The notes below the pieces were generated by a model that ran no database searches, was not told where the DNA came from, and saw only the letters and a list, made by a program, of their open reading frames with translations. The translations under genes and the position numbers were made by a program. Shown here one piece after another: positions 52,798 to 59,487 of a DNA stretch of 64,000 nt. Every line of letters starts with the position of its first letter. The stretch's first letter is position 1. The DNA is from Maribacter polysaccharolyticus (GTDB lineage Bacteria; Bacteroidota; Bacteroidia; Flavobacteriales; Flavobacteriaceae). Location: assembly GCF_028882255.1 (NCBI RefSeq), contig NZ_JARBUY010000005.1, positions 1-64,000 on the forward strand. The letters are read 5' to 3'.

Positions 52798-53250
52798 TTA
52801 ATCGAGTAGTTGTGCCGCATGGTCCTTGGTCTTCACCTTATCGATGACTTTGGTCACCACACCTTCCCCATTGATCACAAAAGTTTTTCTATGGATACCA
52901 TCGTATTCCCTACCCATGAATTTCTTGGGTCCCCAAACTCCGAAAGCATTGATAACGGTATGGTCCTCATCCGCTAACAGCGGAAATGGCAATTCGTGCT
53001 TATTCTTGAAATTCGATTGTCTTTTTTCCGAATCGGCACTCACCCCCAACAATTCATAACCTTGCGACATCAATTCACTGTAGTTATCCCTTAAGTTACA
53101 TGCCTCGGCCGTACAACCTGGGGTACTGGCCTTTGGATAGAAAAAAACAATCAACTTTTTCCCGAGGTAATCGGAAAGTTCAACGGTATTCCCATCTTGG
53201 TCCTTTGCGGTAAACCCAGGGACTTTATCCCCTACTTGTAATGTTTTCAT
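52798..53250 (-). CDS. bcp: Thioredoxin-dependent peroxiredoxin, Bcp/PrxQ type
   Basis: 150 residues. FFYPKASTPGCTAEACNLRD carries the peroxidatic C46 and the resolving C51 five residues later, the atypical two-cysteine arrangement of Bcp/PrxQ. LLGVSADSEKRQSNF and the HRKTFVINGEG end are typical. Reduces peroxides in the cytosol with thioredoxin. Divergent from nth across 53 bases. Confidence 0.95.
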   Translation of the reverse strand: MKTLQVGDKVPGFTAKDQDGNTVELSDYLGKKLIVFFYPKASTPGCTAEACNLRDNYSELMSQGYELLGVSADSEKRQSNFKNKHELPFPLLADEDHTVINAFGVWGPKKFMGREYDGIHRKTFVINGEGVVTKVIDKVKTKDHAAQLLD

Positions 53251-53303: not shown

Positions 53304-53966
53304 ATGACTAAAAAAGAAAAGGTTGATTTTGTCTTAAAAACACTGCAGGAACTTTATCCCTCCATTCCGGTGCCTTTAGACCATAAAGACCCCTATACCC
53401 TATTGATCGCCGTACTACTTTCGGCCCAAAGTACAGATGTGAGGGTCAACCAGATTACACCTTTGCTTTTTGATAGGGCCGACAATCCTTTTGATATGGT
53501 TAAATTAACCGTGGAGGAAATTCGCGAAATCATAAAACCGGTAGGCCTATCCCCTATGAAATCGAAAGGTATCCACGGATTGTCACGAATTTTGATCGAT
53601 AAATATGACGGAGCGGTTCCCAATGACATTGCCCTATTGGAAGAACTTCCGGCGGTCGGGCATAAAACGGCAAGCGTTGTTGTTTCACAGGCCTTTGGCA
53701 CCCCCGCCTTCCCGGTCGATACCCATATTCATAGGTTAATGTACCGCTGGGGACTGTCCAATGGTAAAAATGTGGTTCAGACCGAAAAAGATGCGAAACG
53801 GATTTTCCCTAAGGAGTCATGGAACGATCTGCACTTACAGATCATCTGGTATGGTCGGGAATATTCACCGGCCAGGGGATGGGACCTGGAAAAGGACATC
53901 ATCACCAAAACCATTGGTAGGAAAACGGTGCTGAACGACTATTCCAAAAATAAAAAAACCCGCTAA
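53304..53966 (+). CDS. nth: Endonuclease III-like DNA glycosylase lacking the Fe-S cluster
   Basis: 220 residues. The helix-hairpin-helix and GPD motifs LEELPAVGHKTASVV (Lys121) and PVDTHIHRL (Asp139) give the bifunctional glycosylase/AP lyase active site for oxidised pyrimidines. After GREYSPARGWDLEKDIITKT the usual C-x6-C-x2-C-x5-C cluster loop is absent; the C-terminus has no cysteine. The stop codon sits in the loop of the terminator hairpin. Confidence 0.92.
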   Translation: MTKKEKVDFVLKTLQELYPSIPVPLDHKDPYTLLIAVLLSAQSTDVRVNQITPLLFDRADNPFDMVKLTVEEIREIIKPVGLSPMKSKGIHGLSRILIDKYDGAVPNDIALLEELPAVGHKTASVVVSQAFGTPAFPVDTHIHRLMYRWGLSNGKNVVQTEKDAKRIFPKESWNDLHLQIIWYGREYSPARGWDLEKDIITKTIGRKTVLNDYSKNKKTR

Positions 53967-53982
53967 TTGCGGGTCTTTTTTT
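53952..53982. terminator. Terminator between nth and the small sigma-linked gene
   Basis: ACCCGC / GCGGGT hairpin with A-run on one side and T-run on the other, so it can serve both converging genes. Confidence 0.85.
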
Positions 53983-53983
53983 A

Positions 53984-54127
53984 TTAATTCAAGTTCATTT
54001 CGAACTGTATATTGTTGGGTTTGACTATACAGAGTGACTTAGAAAAACTGGTCAAAAACTGGATGGTCTCGCTACAAGCCTTTACCGGACGGCTCTTCTT
54101 TTCGTGCTCAAAGTAAATTTTTTCCAT
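53984..54127 (-). CDS. 47-residue protein paired with ECF sigma factor, copy A
   Basis: ATG at 54127, TAA at 53984; sequence begins MEKIYFEHEKKSRPVKACSE and continues TIQFLTSFSKSL. It lies 69 bases after the sigma factor gene on the same strand and ends at a terminator. A homologue of identical length (MEKFYVEDKKNIKKVAAKKE, TIDFLLNYSKSL) sits in the same place after the other sigma factor. Shared positions MEK-x-Y, ETI-x-FL, SKSL and the final N-x-N, plus equal length, support a real conserved gene. Function unknown. Confidence 0.75.
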   Translation of the reverse strand: MEKIYFEHEKKSRPVKACSETIQFLTSFSKSLCIVKPNNIQFEMNLN

Positions 54128-54196
54128 ATTGATTATAGTCTTGTTATGTTACAATAACGCAACTAAAATCAAATTATTGTTTTAACCCAAATTCGG

Positions 54197-54781
54197 TTAT
54201 GAATTTGTAAGTACGATATTGTTTTTTTCGATGATCTTTCTAAGATTTATCAGGGCATATCGCATTCTACCCAAAGCCGTGTTTATACTCACCCCCGTAT
54301 TTTCGGAAATTTCCTTAAAGCTCATATCCTTGAAGATACGCATTAAAAGTACTTCCCTCTGATCATCGGGCAACTCGTCTACCAAGTATCTCAAATCCAT
54401 ATGGATCTGGTCTTTGATCAATTGTTTTTCGGCATTCAACTTATCGTCCCCTATGACCGAAAAGATATTGAAGTCATCACTTCCTTCGAACATGGGCATC
54501 CTTTTGTTCTTTCTAAAATGATCGATGATCAAGTTGTGTGCGATTCGCATAACCCAAGGTAAAAATTTACCTTCTTCACTGTACGTACCTTTTTTTAAGG
54601 TTTTGATCACTTTAATGAAGGTGTCCTGAAAAATATCTTCAGTGATATCCCTATCCAGTACTTTGGAGTAGATAAAACTGGAAATACGTTGGTTGTGCCT
54701 ATTGATAAGGATTTCCAGCGCTTTCTCATCTCCGCTGATGTAATCTCTAACTAATATCGAGTCGTCAATTTGTAGTTCCAT
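54197..54781 (-). CDS. ECF sigma factor, copy A
   Basis: 194 residues. Sigma region 2 (ALEILINRHNQRISSFIYSK, DITEDIFQDTFIKVIKTL, GKFLPWVMRIAHNLIIDHFR) and region 4 (LPDDQREVLLMRIFKDMSFK, EISENTGVSINTALGRMRYA) are complete, giving an extracytoplasmic-function sigma-70 protein that redirects RNA polymerase. No anti-sigma gene is adjacent. A 47-residue protein gene follows. Paralogue at 55702-56283. Confidence 0.95.
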   Translation of the reverse strand: MELQIDDSILVRDYISGDEKALEILINRHNQRISSFIYSKVLDRDITEDIFQDTFIKVIKTLKKGTYSEEGKFLPWVMRIAHNLIIDHFRKNKRMPMFEGSDDFNIFSVIGDDKLNAEKQLIKDQIHMDLRYLVDELPDDQREVLLMRIFKDMSFKEISENTGVSINTALGRMRYALINLRKIIEKNNIVLTNS

Positions 54782-55222
54782 GCAAAGTATTTTTAAGTTT
54801 AGGGCTTCTTTTGGTTAAAGCTTGATTTAGGTTTTAGGTCTTTTACTTTGAGTTAAACAGCTTTCGGTTAAAAATGTGCTATTCATTAATTATGACCTAA
54901 AACTATATAAAACAGGGAGTGTGAAAAAAACTATGTTGTCAAACACGCTTTTTATGATGTGAAACAATCATTTTTGATTTTCAATACAATATTCCAAAGG
55001 ATTGGCAGTTGTTTCGACCAACTTCAACCTCTATTTACCCCGTCGGCAGGGCTTAAGATCATCGCTTGGGATATTAGACATCTTACTATTCAACCGATTA
55101 AGATCCTTTACCTATTTTCAAACATGACATCTGCGGGCGACCGTAGAACAGGATCCCATTTCGGAAGTACCCAAAAATCCAAATAAAACAGTCACCGTCC
55201 CAAAGGCCTAAACGGTATTTAA
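54782..55222. other. Intergenic region upstream of sigma copy A
   Basis: 440 bases. No gene supported: a 75-codon open frame at 54959-55186 on the plus strand has no protein-like features. The AT-rich part near 54900 presumably holds the sigma gene promoter. Confidence 0.4.
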
Positions 55223-55348
55223 GGCTTCACTATCAACGGCATTCATGCCTGCCATGCCAAAACCATATCAAATATCAAAAAGAACAAAGCATTAAAGGAT
55301 AAGAATCTTGATGCCCATTATATGTACTTTGCCCTCCAATTAGGGTAG
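55223..55348 (+). other. Possible coding remnant
   Basis: Forty-one codons without an ATG start read GFTINGIHACHAKTISNIKK then NKALKDKNLDAHYMYFALQLG and stop at TAG. The strand-helix pattern looks protein-like, but nothing upstream is open for long. Possibly a decayed gene. Confidence 0.2.
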
Positions 55349-55390
55349 CGCCCCCAGAAGTTCAAATAGGGGTTCTTATGGGTATAAATC

Positions 55391-55423
55391 AAAAAACCCC
55401 TATTACTGGTGTAATAAGGGTTT
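55391..55423 (-). terminator. Rho-independent terminator
   Basis: AAACCCTTATTAC / GTAATAGGGGTTTTTT on the minus strand, 20 bases after the second 47-residue gene. Confidence 0.8.
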
Positions 55424-55442
55424 ATGTTTTACTCCAAAAAAA

Positions 55443-55586
55443 TCAATTTATATTGCTCTCGTAGGTTATACCTTTGATCTTTTGGATTTTCAATGATTTG
55501 GAATAATTCAACAAAAAATCAATGGTCTCTTTTTTTGCTGCTACCTTTTTAATATTTTTCTTATCCTCAACGTAAAATTTCTCCAT
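55443..55586 (-). CDS. 47-residue protein paired with ECF sigma factor, copy B
   Basis: ATG at 55586, TGA at 55443; begins MEKFYVEDKKNIKKVAAKKE. Same length as, and about 40 percent identical by eye to, the gene at 53984. It lies 115 bases after the second sigma factor gene and ends at a terminator. Lysine-rich N-terminal half, then an amphipathic helix (IDFLLNYSKSLKI). Perhaps an anti-sigma-like or regulatory partner, but this is inferred only from pairing. Confidence 0.75.
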   Translation of the reverse strand: MEKFYVEDKKNIKKVAAKKETIDFLLNYSKSLKIQKIKGITYESNIN

Positions 55587-55701
55587 ATCTATTTCAGTAT
55601 TGTTTCATTACTAAAACGCCCTAAAGTTAAAAATAATAAATAGGTTCGACCTACGCCCTTTTTATTCGATAAAAACATGGAAAGTCTGTCCTACGGGGCG
55701 C

Positions 55702-56283
55702 TTAATCCGTTAAAATGATATTGTGTTCATCAATAAGCTTTCGGAGATTGATAAGCGCATAACGCATACGACCCAGTGCCGTGTTGATACTCACCCCTGT
55801 ATTTTCGGAAATTTCCTTAAAACTCATGTTCCTATACATGCGCATTACAAGTACATCGCGCTGATCTATGGGCAACTCTTCGACAAGTACCGCCAAGTCC
55901 TCATCGATCTGCTCTTTGATAAGTTGTTTCTCGATGTTCAATTTCTCATCATGAACAACTGAAAAAATATCGAAGGTATTGGATCCCTCGAAATAGGGCA
56001 ATCTGCTACTCTTCCTGAAATAATCGATGATCAAGTTATGGGCAATACGCATTACCCATGGCAAAAATTTACCTTCCTCGTTGTACCTTCCTTTTTTAAG
56101 TGTCCTAATGACCTTTATAAAGGTATCCTGAAAAATATCCTCGGTGATTTCCCGATCTTTGACCTTTGAATAGATAAAGCCACTTAGGCGTTGGTTATGC
56201 CTTTTTATCAAGGTTTCCAGAGATTTTTCATCTCCGTTAATGTAATTCTGAATAAGTAGGGAGTCGGCTATTTGAAGTTCCAT
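55702..56283 (-). CDS. ECF sigma factor, copy B
   Basis: 193 residues, closely similar to copy A in all sigma regions (region 2 EITEDIFQDTFIKVIRTLKK, region 4 LPIDQRDVLVMRMYRNMSFK). The two arose by duplication together with the 47-residue gene. The cleft between region 2 and 4 linkers (NTFDIFSVVHDEKLNIEKQL) is also kept. Upstream 400 bases (56284-56691) are AT-rich with no gene apart from the uvrA promoter. Confidence 0.95.
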   Translation of the reverse strand: MELQIADSLLIQNYINGDEKSLETLIKRHNQRLSGFIYSKVKDREITEDIFQDTFIKVIRTLKKGRYNEEGKFLPWVMRIAHNLIIDYFRKSSRLPYFEGSNTFDIFSVVHDEKLNIEKQLIKEQIDEDLAVLVEELPIDQRDVLVMRMYRNMSFKEISENTGVSINTALGRMRYALINLRKLIDEHNIILTD

Positions 56284-56649
56284 ATCAATTACTTTTTTTA
56301 GTAAAAATTAGGGGCTGATCCTTCTGGGAAAAGCCTTTTGGGGTTACACTAATTTTAAAAAAGTAATTTTATGGCTATAGGCGTCTTAACATTTTATTTA
56401 GTTCAAATATAGAAAAAATTATAAGTTATAAAAAAACAGCGCCTTAATTATCATCATTTTATCTGTTCCTTTCCAAAATACACCCGTTTCCTACAACGAT
56501 CGGTTTTAACATTTTAAACGAATGGAAATCCCAAAAAAGAAACGTGATACCCCATGTTACCCAAGGTAAACCCTCCATAGGGTACTTGATCGTAAAAATA
56601 CATGTACTTGTTAAATGCATTCGAAAGGACAAATCAAATTTTAGTCCAA

Positions 56650-56683
56650 TTGAAAAAGTTTAAATACGTTCATCGTATCTTTG
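56650..56683 (+). promoter_or_regulatory. uvrA promoter
   Basis: -33 TTG (56650-56652) and -7 TATCTTTG (56676-56683), separated by 23 bases, fit the Flavobacteriia consensus TTG...TAnnTTTG. Only 8 bases separate it from ATG 56692, so the transcript has almost no leader, and this decides the start. Confidence 0.65.
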
Positions 56684-56691
56684 TGTTCCGA

Positions 56692-59487
56692 ATGAAGAAT
56701 ATGCCCGCAATACAAGACGTCAATCCTAAGCATAATATTATTATTAAAGGTGCCAAGCTGCACAATTTAAAGAATATCGATGTTGTGATCCCCAGAAATA
56801 AACTGGTCGTAATTACCGGTCTTTCGGGCTCCGGGAAATCGAGTTTGGCTTTCGACACCCTATATGCCGAAGGTCAGCGCCGCTATGTAGAAAGCCTATC
56901 TTCCTATGCCCGCCAATTTCTGGGCAAATTGGACAAACCCAAGGTAGACTATATAAAAGGCATAGCTCCCGCCATCGCGATAGAGCAAAAGGTAAATTCG
57001 ACCAACCCTCGTTCAACGGTAGGGACCACTACAGAGATTTACGATTACCTAAAACTATTGTTTGCCCGTATCGGTAAGACCTACTCCCCTATATCCGGGG
57101 AAGAAGTCAAGAAACATACGGTTACCGATGTGGTAAAATTCATAAAGGAATTCAAGGAAGGGGAGAAACTGCTGCTCTTGGCCCCCATCGTTATAAAAGC
57201 CGATAGAGACCCCATAAAATCGCTACAATTATTCTCAAAACAAGGGTATGCCAGAATAAAACACAATGGGAAGGTCATTCGAATCGAAGCCGCTCCTGAG
57301 GATATAGGACATAATTTTAGCCTGGTCGTAGATCGGATCATCACCAAAAACGACGAGGATTTCCTTAACCGATTGGCCAATGCCATAGATTCGGCCTTTT
57401 TTGAAGGAAAAGGGGAATGTATCATTGAAGAACTAAAAACGGAAAAACAGACCGTTTTCAATAACAAGTTTGAAAAAGATGGCCTGTCCTTTTTGGAGCC
57501 CAACGTACACCTCTTCAGTTTTAACAACCCCTATGGGGCGTGCCCTAAATGCGAAGGATACGGGGATGTTATCGGCATAGATGAGGATTTGGTGATTCCC
57601 AATACGGCCCTTTCAGTATATGAAAACGGCATTTTCCCTTGGAGGGGCGAAAGCATGGGTTGGTATCGGGACGAATTGGTGAACAGCGCCTATAAATTCG
57701 ATTTCCCCATACATAAACCATGGTTTGAACTTACCGAAGAACAAAAGCAATTGGTTTGGGACGGTAATTCCCACTTTACCGGACTACATAAATTCTTTGC
57801 TTTTTTGGAGGAGAAGAGCTATAAGATCCAAAATAGGGTAATGCTCTCGAGGTATCGTGGTAAAACCAGATGTAGCGAATGTAAGGGCAAACGTCTCCGT
57901 AAAGAGACCGAATACGTAAAGATCGACGGGAAATCGATAACCGACTTGGTTGAATTGCCCATTGATCGATTATCGGAATTCTTCAATCATCTCTCCCTAA
58001 CCGATCACGATGCGCAAATTGCCGACAGATTGTTGAAGGAAATCAATACCCGATTGGGTTTCTTGGAAAAAGTGGGACTAAAGTACCTTACCTTAAACCG
58101 TAAATCAAATTCCCTTTCGGGAGGCGAAAGCCAACGGATCAACTTAGCGACTTCGTTGGGCAGTAGCCTGGTGGGGTCAATGTATATTCTTGATGAGCCC
58201 AGTATCGGTTTACATCCCAAGGATACTGAAAACCTGATAGCGGTACTGAAATCGCTGCGTGATCTCGGCAATACCGTGATTGTGGTTGAGCATGATGAGG
58301 ATATCATGAATGCTGCGGATGAAGTCATCGACATAGGTCCTGAAGCCGGAAGTAAAGGGGGCGAGGTGGTCGCCCACGGAACATTGAGCGAAATCCTTAC
58401 GTCTTCTTCCCTAACCGCAAGTTACTTGAATGGCACATTGGAAATAGAAGTACCTAAAAAAAGACGGACATCCCAGAATTTCATTACGATCAAAGGAGCC
58501 CGGGAAAACAATCTAAAAAATATAGATGCGACTTTTCCCTTGAACATGCTAACCGTCGTAACCGGGGTTTCCGGTAGTGGCAAAAGTACCTTGGTCAAGA
58601 AATTGCTCTACCCCATCCTATTGAAGGAAATAGGGGGTTATGGTCAAAAAGCCGGACAGTTTACGGCTGTCGAAGGCAAATACAAATCCATTAAACACGT
58701 AGAGTTCGTCGACCAGAATCCGATAGGAAGATCCTCCCGTTCCAACCCGGTGACCTATATCAAAGCCTATGATGATATAAGGGCCCTGTTTGCCGCCCAA
58801 AAATTAAGCAAGATCAGAGGGTACCAACCAAAACACTTCTCATTCAATGTAGATGGGGGGCGTTGTGAAAAATGTAAGGGAGAAGGGGAAATAACCGTTG
58901 AGATGCAGTTTATGGCCGATGTACATTTAGAATGCGATACCTGCGGGGGCAAACGTTTCAAGAAGGAGGTGTTGGAAGTCACCTTTGAAGGGGCCAGCAT
59001 TGCCGATATCCTTGATATGACCCTGGATGATGCCATAGACTTTTTCCAAAAACATGGACAGAACAAGATCGTGGGTAAGTTGGGTCCCCTCCGCGATGTA
59101 GGATTGGGGTATGTTACCTTGGGCCAGTCTTCCTCTACCTTATCCGGGGGTGAGGCCCAACGGATAAAGCTTGCATCCTTTTTGGTAAAGGGGACCACAA
59201 AAGACAAGGCCCTTTTCATTTTTGATGAACCTACTACAGGGCTGCATTTCCACGACATCAAAAAATTATTGAAATCCTTTGATGCCTTGATTTCTAAAGG
59301 ACATTCGGTCGTCGTGATCGAACATAATATTGAGCTGATCAAATGTGCCGACCATATTCTTGACCTAGGCCCTGAGGGGGGTGAGAATGGCGGGAATATT
59401 CTAGCCCAAGGTACCCCTGAGGAAATGATCAAGAGTACGGCATCATTCACTGCAAATTACCTAAAAGAGAAACTGGTTTCCCGTTGA
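56692..59487 (+). CDS. uvrA: Excinuclease ABC subunit A
   Basis: 931 residues from ATG 56692 (an open frame runs to 56602, but the promoter falls inside it). Two ABC ATPase halves: Walker [15 protein letters not shown] and [14 protein letters not shown], signature [12 protein letters not shown] and [12 protein letters not shown], Walker [13 protein letters not shown] and [11 protein letters not shown]. Zinc modules: CPKCEGYG with CSECKGKR, and CEKCKGEGE with CDTCGGKRF. It finds DNA damage in nucleotide excision repair with UvrB and UvrC. Full length and all key motifs intact. Confidence 0.98.

Follow-up and report, generated by a model that had tools for sequence, protein, structure and literature searches.

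Two tandem sigma modules in a Maribacter contig

The window analysed here is a stretch of 64,000 nucleotides (64 kb) from Maribacter polysaccharolyticus (contig NZ_JARBUY010000005.1, positions 1 to 64,000). On its minus strand lie two tandem modules, each composed of a gene for an extracytoplasmic function (ECF) sigma factor and a small gene encoding a protein of 47 amino acids (aa): sigma B with small gene B, then sigma A with small gene A (Table 1). Both sigma factors match PF04542 and PF08281 above cut-off and, being short and holding regions 2 and 4 only, have the make-up of ECF sigma factors. The two sigmas are 76% identical, and the two small proteins are 49% identical across all 47 residues (E 2e-13 in a single comparison). 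A sequence-only reading of this DNA had proposed that both sigmas are followed on the same strand by a homologous gene of 47 codons; the open reading frames and the identity bear this out, and the words MEK-x-Y, ETI-x-FL and SKSL that it had singled out are all found in the small proteins. A terminator had also been placed behind each small gene. A terminator-like hairpin does lie behind both, although that behind small gene A may be shared, since it also stands at the end of the convergent gene. Terminator-like sites number 5 in the 2.8-kb stretch against 1.9 ± 1.4 in shuffled sequences. No classical anti-sigma gene was recognized on reading the translations of all frames at both loci, in agreement with the earlier reading.

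Searching the Maribacter genome with the small protein gave 4 matches at E≤1, of which 2 are convincing copies; the remaining two (E 0.34 and 0.55) fall inside long frames. The same genome contains 23 matches to sigma-70 region 2, yet just these two convincing small genes.

Table 1. Features of the two modules, with positions in the window.
Feature	Position	Strand	Basis or remark
ECF sigma factor A	54197..54781	-	194 aa; Pfam Sigma70_r2 5.7e-14, Sigma70_r4_2 4.3e-11
47-aa partner gene A	53984..54127 (incl. stop)	-	Open reading frame list, pairwise comparison, genome search
ECF-type promoter-like site of partner gene A	54157..54179	-	CAAT-N16-CGT; 25-nt pattern with its end 27 nt ahead of ATG
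Terminator-like hairpin after partner gene A	53952..53980	-	Hairpin scan
ECF sigma factor B	55702..56283	-	193 aa; Pfam regions 2 and 4; sigma tree
47-aa partner gene B	55443..55586 (incl. stop)	-	Open reading frame list, pairwise comparison, genome and family searches
Degenerate promoter counterpart before partner gene B	55616..55638	-	TATT-N16-CGT
AGGTCGA element before partner gene B	55646..55652	-	34 nt before CGTT
Terminator-like hairpin after partner gene B	55394..55423	-	Hairpin scan

Conservation of the small gene and linkage to the sigma factor

A single 47-aa query (E≤0.01) found matches in 116 of 149 genomes of the family, representing 115 of 148 genera, far beyond chance, and no internal stop was reported in the family matches. 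A profile built from 33 copies, run on 196 genomes of the order, matched 105 of them and 47 of the 72 genera. The misses of the family search are partly due to low sensitivity, as genome G125 was missed there yet matched by the order profile; in genome G039, also missed by the single query, the small gene surfaced via its promoter pattern. When the 33-copy profile was applied to the phylum, 41 of 296 genomes matched and only 5 of these lie outside the order (E 0.002–0.009). Three of the five, from family f30, are chance matches within 333- and 337-aa carbamoyltransferase-like frames and a 617-aa acyl-CoA synthetase-like frame, as judged by reading; the other two, in G374 and in G568, where there is an internal stop, are not among the fetched loci.

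The small proteins share the consensus M-[EA]-K-x-Y ... P-K-x-E-T-I-x-F-L-L-N-Y-S-K-[AS]-L ... F-E-x-x-L-N. Exactly 47 codons are present in 113 of 169 order-level copies, and the C-terminal residue is asparagine in all 168 complete copies, the 169th being truncated by the end of its locus. Across 141 distinct copies, the entropy of the core at codon positions 1, 2 and 3 is 0.78, 0.40 and 1.43 bits. The pairwise dN/dS has a median of 0.49 and the pooled pN/pS is 0.72, indicating at most mild constraint; the codon-position entropy is preferred as a test of coding since dN/dS on 47 codons is noisy. Judged by its conservation, the small gene is real, protein-coding and widely conserved. It is not named in the titles or abstract openings of the open-access literature searched.

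The earlier reading had suggested looking for the small protein behind homologous sigma genes of flavobacteria, and had held that a lack of conservation there would speak against it. The linkage was found in each of the 143 order-level loci. With the small protein as query, 59 loci were fetched (L005–L063, the best-scoring matches of the family, order and phylum searches), and in every one the sigma gene lies directly upstream on the same strand. Conversely, when loci were fetched with the sigma alone (the best 80 of 580 relatives), the small gene was found just downstream in 80 of 80 named loci and behind all 89 sigma copies therein. All 169 sigma copies in the order-level loci (L005–L147) carry the small gene at 30 bits or more; these 169 pairs include 164 small proteins that differ in sequence, and a few genomes are represented twice. 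The gap between the two genes measures 47–81 nt in 160 of the 169 pairs and 141 nt at most, a single value of 21 being an artefact of a run of N. On comparative grounds a conserved sigma partner is strongly supported, and the neighbouring sigma would be its cognate.

A promoter-like motif in the gap

The gap between sigma and small gene contains a bipartite motif, A-C-A-A-T-A ... C-G-T-T-A-T. Counting unique gaps free of N, the strict form CAAT-N16-CGTT occurs in 111 of 166, compared with 0.06 per shuffled set; it is absent at spacings N14, N15 and N17, and it precedes the sigma gene itself in only 1 of 158 cases. The relaxed form [CTA]A[ACT]T-N16-CGT is present in 151 of the 166 gaps (4.9 in shuffled sets; 1 at N15 and 4 at N17). 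It is also met at N13 in 64 gaps and at N12 in 31, which are taken to be the same A/T-rich site out of register. A transcriptome report on F. psychrophilum (PMC9723704) takes ECF promoters to be marked by a CGT box at -10. The motif is probably the promoter of the small gene, read by the neighbouring sigma. In loci L151, L156 and L190 the small gene looks like a transcription unit of its own, because a hairpin with a T-run separates it from the sigma gene.

Genome-wide, the strict motif has 16 matches in Maribacter against 11 for a reversed control; intergenic matches with a frame no more than 120 nt away number 5 among the 16, and one of them is that of partner gene A. In 41 genomes of the family the summed counts are 53 and 33, respectively. 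Thirty of these motif loci were fetched. The partner gene follows the motif in 8 of them; in 9 the motif falls within a repeated coding stretch and in 2 within a different coding frame, and the last 11 are intergenic sites elsewhere. The region before the small gene is the recurring non-coding place marked by the motif. Two other candidate targets were followed up with 30 loci each from the 41 genomes and rejected. For LptE, 4 of 30 regions (L351, L348, L340 and L349) exceed the 99% level of shuffled sequences, but, read by eye, the -35 half coincides with the last codons of the gene ahead of LptE. For an OstA-like gene, the strict motif lies 21–22 nt before the gene in one genome (L302/L362), that is, in 1 of 30 loci.

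Duplication and divergence of the module

A tree of 66 sigma sequences (20 upstream copies, 20 downstream copies and 26 single copies, the last picked by hand) places sigma B of the window within a clade of 15 upstream copies with support of 98/98; the other 5 of the 20 upstream copies fall outside this clade. The downstream copies evolve slowly and lie near the single copies of relatives. Sigma A is such a downstream copy, with 64–94% identity to the other sigmas of one alignment, and sigma B is the upstream, faster-evolving copy.

The gaps divide in the same way. In a comparison of 164 gaps, strict CAAT-N16-CGT is found in 25 of 25 downstream-copy gaps and in none of 25 upstream-copy gaps, the latter having the relaxed motif in 13 and CGTT in all 25. 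An AGGTCGA-like element, about 34 nt before CGTT where counted, marks 18 of 25 upstream-copy gaps and 2 of 114 others but none of the 25 downstream-copy gaps; the single copies in this comparison include loci that may hold a second copy outside the sequence fetched. Since the promoter and AGGTCGA split by copy, the upstream module may have gained another input, with AGGTCGA possibly an activator site that replaces the -35 box. The tree and the gaps show a tandem duplication of the module in one flavobacterial lineage, with divergence of the upstream copy in its sigma, its partner and its promoter.

Graded relatives across the class

Of 149 sampled genomes of the class Bacteroidia, 132 have an orthologue of the sigma (E≤1e-40), in single copy except in G000 and G366. 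Besides L144–L147, 106 class loci were read (26 given by the sigma search itself and 80 fetched), one of which, L215, belongs to the order of the window. With a threshold of 10 bits, partner relatives were recognized at 69 of the 106 loci: 46 of a short type ending in LN and 23 of a long type with an anti-sigma domain. The motif CAAT-N16/17-CGT is present in 36 of the 46 loci whose partner is short, in 5 of the 23 whose partner is long and in 2 of the 37 that have no recognised partner, where shuffled sequences give 1.4, 0.9 and 1.4.

The short forms of the class are mostly 53–71 aa long and end in ..I-x-N-I-L-N-Y-S-K-A-L-S-V-x-x-S-K-x-x-G-x-I-E-x-V-L-N; 23 of them end in asparagine, but that end was a selection criterion there. 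Soluble forms of 72–81 aa have an anti-sigma-like start, T-F-T-x-x-D-L-I-R-Y-L-Y-x-E, and near the end a helix P-x-x-x-x-x-I-L-x-Y-S. Three longer forms add a hydrophobic, membrane-type segment: L224 with 174 aa, L244 with 194 aa and L227 in a frame of 182 aa. Membrane-type forms start near the sigma stop, with gaps of -17 (L224) and 7 (L244). The NCBIfam anti-sigma model NF052375 matches L224 (5.4e-8) and L244 (1.9e-4), as well as the soluble L196 (4.4e-4) and L233 (7.6e-4). Long-type relatives have no conserved -LN end.

Homology across this series was supported from both sides. A model of the short type was run on 818 frames downstream of the sigma and reaches 8 bits or more in 59 of them, 23 of these having served to train it; among 5297 other frames it does so in none. 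With a model of the long set, scores for short types reach 23.1 bits (E 1e-7), a signal that comes in part from the in-between forms L193, L199 and L203 included in that set. Aligned by hhalign, the class-wide short and long sets give a probability of 89% (E 2.2e-6, 25 columns), and the aligned part of the long-type relatives is their last helix. (The first row of alignment A4 was taken as L230:651-881, the frame itself being 657-887.) By the reciprocal scores and the background of 5297 frames, the small proteins are homologous, via intermediates, to proteins with an anti-sigma N-terminus.

Three frames in these loci are of separate interest. In L236 a 66-aa frame (1365-1563, sigma strand) about 700 nt downstream of the sigma scores 50 bits with the long-type model and is possibly a displaced partner. 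L194 has behind its sigma an 84-aa frame with an -LN end and the promoter motif before it; it scores below 10 bits, was counted as none, and is perhaps a diverged intermediate. The 82-aa frame behind the sigma of L201 resembles a ribbon-helix-helix antitoxin by reading.

Predicted structure of the small protein

The AlphaFold2 model of the small protein alone consists of a helix (19-31) and two strands (32-35 and 42-45) with a mean pLDDT of 81. This model and that of a read-through fusion of sigma and small protein were built from the same loci, namely 46 in-frame pairs and the window (47 rows); from 51 in-frame pairs, L144 (the window copy), L130, L138, L121 and L055 were left out. Known structures resembling the fusion model cover the sigma part only. 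Foldseek with the small-protein model gave no hit at E≤0.001, the best E being 1.4, and the 33-copy profile found nothing among sequences of the Protein Data Bank (PDB) at E≤10. No secretion signal, membrane segment or cysteine-rich zinc motif was seen on reading the 47-aa sequences.

Discussion

The class I anti-sigma domain (ASDI), as depicted in part of a survey (PMC7406223), contacts sigma-4 through helices 1-3 and sigma-2 through helix 4. Of the 14 top coevolution contacts, 12 are between helix 4 and sigma-2, an interaction thought to block RNA polymerase. The small protein resembles ASDI proteins such as RseA, RsiW and RskA in being encoded next to an ECF sigma (80 of 80 named loci, 69 of 106 class loci) and in having a conserved helix where helix 4 of the ASDI would be. 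Some of its class relatives match an NCBI anti-sigma model, and three have a membrane-type segment. It differs from ASDI in its length of 47 aa, in the lack of helices 1-3 and, by reading, of a cysteine-rich zinc motif and a membrane segment, and in its own promoter. The four-helix arrangement was not found: one helix and one hairpin are predicted, and the 47-aa protein itself matches no curated anti-sigma model. Given the single helix and hairpin, it is not filed as a member of the ASDI but only as a likely reduced descendant. The small gene is best read as encoding a minimal anti-sigma and as having its own promoter. The suggestion of a new kind of sigma partner in the sequence-only reading thus stands as regards the partner, which the linkage supports, and is only partly right as regards the kind, as some longer relatives match the anti-sigma model. 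The promoter motif in the gap had no place in that reading.

We consider the odds slightly in favour of the 47-aa protein being a minimal soluble anti-sigma of the neighbouring ECF sigma, expressed from its own ECF-type promoter and exerting negative feedback if that sigma reads the promoter. It would have descended from an ordinary class I anti-sigma by loss of the membrane anchor and of the sigma-4-binding helices 1-3, retaining the last helix (P-x-x-x-T-I-x-F-L-L-x-Y-S-K-x-L) and a C-terminal hairpin that ends in -L-N. The retained part would bind region 2 of the sigma and keep it off RNA polymerase. Transcription of the small gene would start from the ECF-type promoter located between the two genes; were this promoter used by the neighbouring sigma, active sigma would make its own brake, a homeostat by negative feedback. 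A reduced anti-sigma is the most likely identity because some longer relatives at the same place match the NCBI anti-sigma model, two of them with a membrane-type segment, and the simplest reading is an anti-sigma cut down to a sigma-2 clasp, since the short forms align with the last helix of the long-type relatives.

A number of results weigh against this proposal. At 37 of the 106 class loci the sigma has no recognised partner. NF052375 matches are limited to 4 of 21 long-type members scanned, at 20–33 bits against a curated cut-off of 100, and 6 of 10 members in one scan gave no match. The 47-aa set alone aligns with the long set by hhalign at a probability of 30%, and the long-type model gives 0.0 bits for copy A of the window and 9.2 for copy B; the link of the window proteins to the long type therefore runs through the intermediates. 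Neither small A nor small B matches Pfam or NCBIfam at E≤1, and among 29 class-wide members no family matches more than one (E≥0.01). The fusion model has a pTM of 0.49, and the confidence of its small part, 79–90 by blocks, compares with 91–95 for the core modelled alone; since fusion gives the small part no higher confidence than it has by itself, docking is unsupported by the modelling. No wider regulon with the motif was found in Maribacter or in the 41 family genomes. Finally, binding and inhibition of the sigma, the surface bound, the direction of the reduction and the reading of the promoter by the neighbouring sigma are something that we infer.

Alternatively, an anti-sigma ancestor may have given rise to a positive cofactor, such as a stabiliser, a chaperone or a co-sigma that aids the binding of RNA polymerase, in which case the feedback would be positive. 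Sigma factors made of two parts, e.g. SigO-RsoA of B. subtilis, offer a precedent. Conservation with the sigma in every order-level locus, together with the promoter, fits an obligatory partner, and without helices 1-3 much of the usual inhibitory surface is gone. Nevertheless, the sigma need not depend on its partner, given the 37 class loci in which none is recognised, and some long relatives match the anti-sigma model; we regard a cofactor as unlikely, with perhaps one chance in several. Virtually the same low standing, a shade less if anything, is given to a conserved effector that is the main target of the sigma, kept adjacent to it and acting elsewhere, for instance in the envelope. In its favour, the small gene has its own ECF-type promoter, and a hairpin splits it from the sigma in 3 of the 46 short-type loci, so that it can form a separate transcription unit; the strict motif finds this one recurring target (8 of the 30 fetched loci). 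An effector is harder to reconcile with the anti-sigma-like proteins that stand at this position elsewhere and grade into the small protein by homology, and by reading the 47-aa sequences have neither a secretion signal nor a membrane segment.

The small protein could also be an adaptor that delivers the sigma to a protease, with the invariant C-terminal asparagine (168 of 168 complete order-level copies) serving as a recognition tail. That residue may instead be structural, as it follows a predicted strand of the hairpin, and the long-type relatives lack a conserved -LN end, which makes an adaptor improbable. A non-coding or chance frame, be it a leader, an RNA element or a terminator region, has in its favour a length under the usual annotation limits, and is refuted at the level of conservation by the codon-position pattern, the class-wide protein conservation and the family-wide matches, leaving it next to no likelihood.

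Returning to the reduced anti-sigma, the same survey excerpt counts ASDIs beside 6% of the ECF sigmas of Bacteroidetes compared with 32% on average, domains below 50 aa having been removed, and leaves open how the remaining ones are controlled (PMC7406223). The 47-aa module is a concrete and conserved candidate answer for one ECF sigma, that found in 132 of the 149 sampled class genomes, and the series of relatives suggests a stepwise reduction of an anti-sigma factor to 47 residues. As a broader proposal, which we hold as tentative and somewhat short of an even chance, Bacteroidota may seem short of recognisable anti-sigmas because these have shrunk: soluble remnants of 47–81 residues would occur class-wide, consisting in Flavobacteriales of one sigma-2-binding helix and a hairpin, and would act as a stand-alone feedback brake with a sigma-type promoter only on the inhibitor gene. 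The gap motif offers a ready-made promoter assay.

Several other anti-sigma factors can be compared. NepR is about 60 aa long and built of helices; the small protein differs from it in its predicted helix and hairpin. Pfam includes a NepR model, and the matches that Pfam gave for the window proteins and for the 29 class-wide members included no NepR family. CnrY is membrane-bound, and a very short part of it binds the sigma. It is a class II anti-sigma in the survey excerpt (PMC7406223) and is seen with CnrH in PDB 4cxf, the likeness to the small protein being one of description only. As outlined in a section of PMC8999054, NepR, the anti-sigma of EcfG in Alphaproteobacteria, targets an ECF sigma and has no membrane anchor, and this would hold for the small protein too. 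The same section has CfrX of Pseudomonas as a small soluble protein and proposed anti-sigma of SigX, which resembles the small protein by description only and, unlike it, is proposed to act within a mechanosensing complex. Within the phylum, excerpts on SigP of Porphyromonas gingivalis describe an ECF sigma of 193 aa tied to the response regulator PorX (PMC4800418, PMC8265659), and a further one reports a single SigP homologue in F. johnsoniae, with the accession PZQ89414.1 (PMC10951265). SigP could be an orthologue of the sigma of the window; the passages on it in PMC4800418 mention no small partner gene.

Neighbouring genes

By reading translations, the frames near the modules resemble a peroxiredoxin (52798-53250), endonuclease III (53304-53966) and UvrA (56602-59487).

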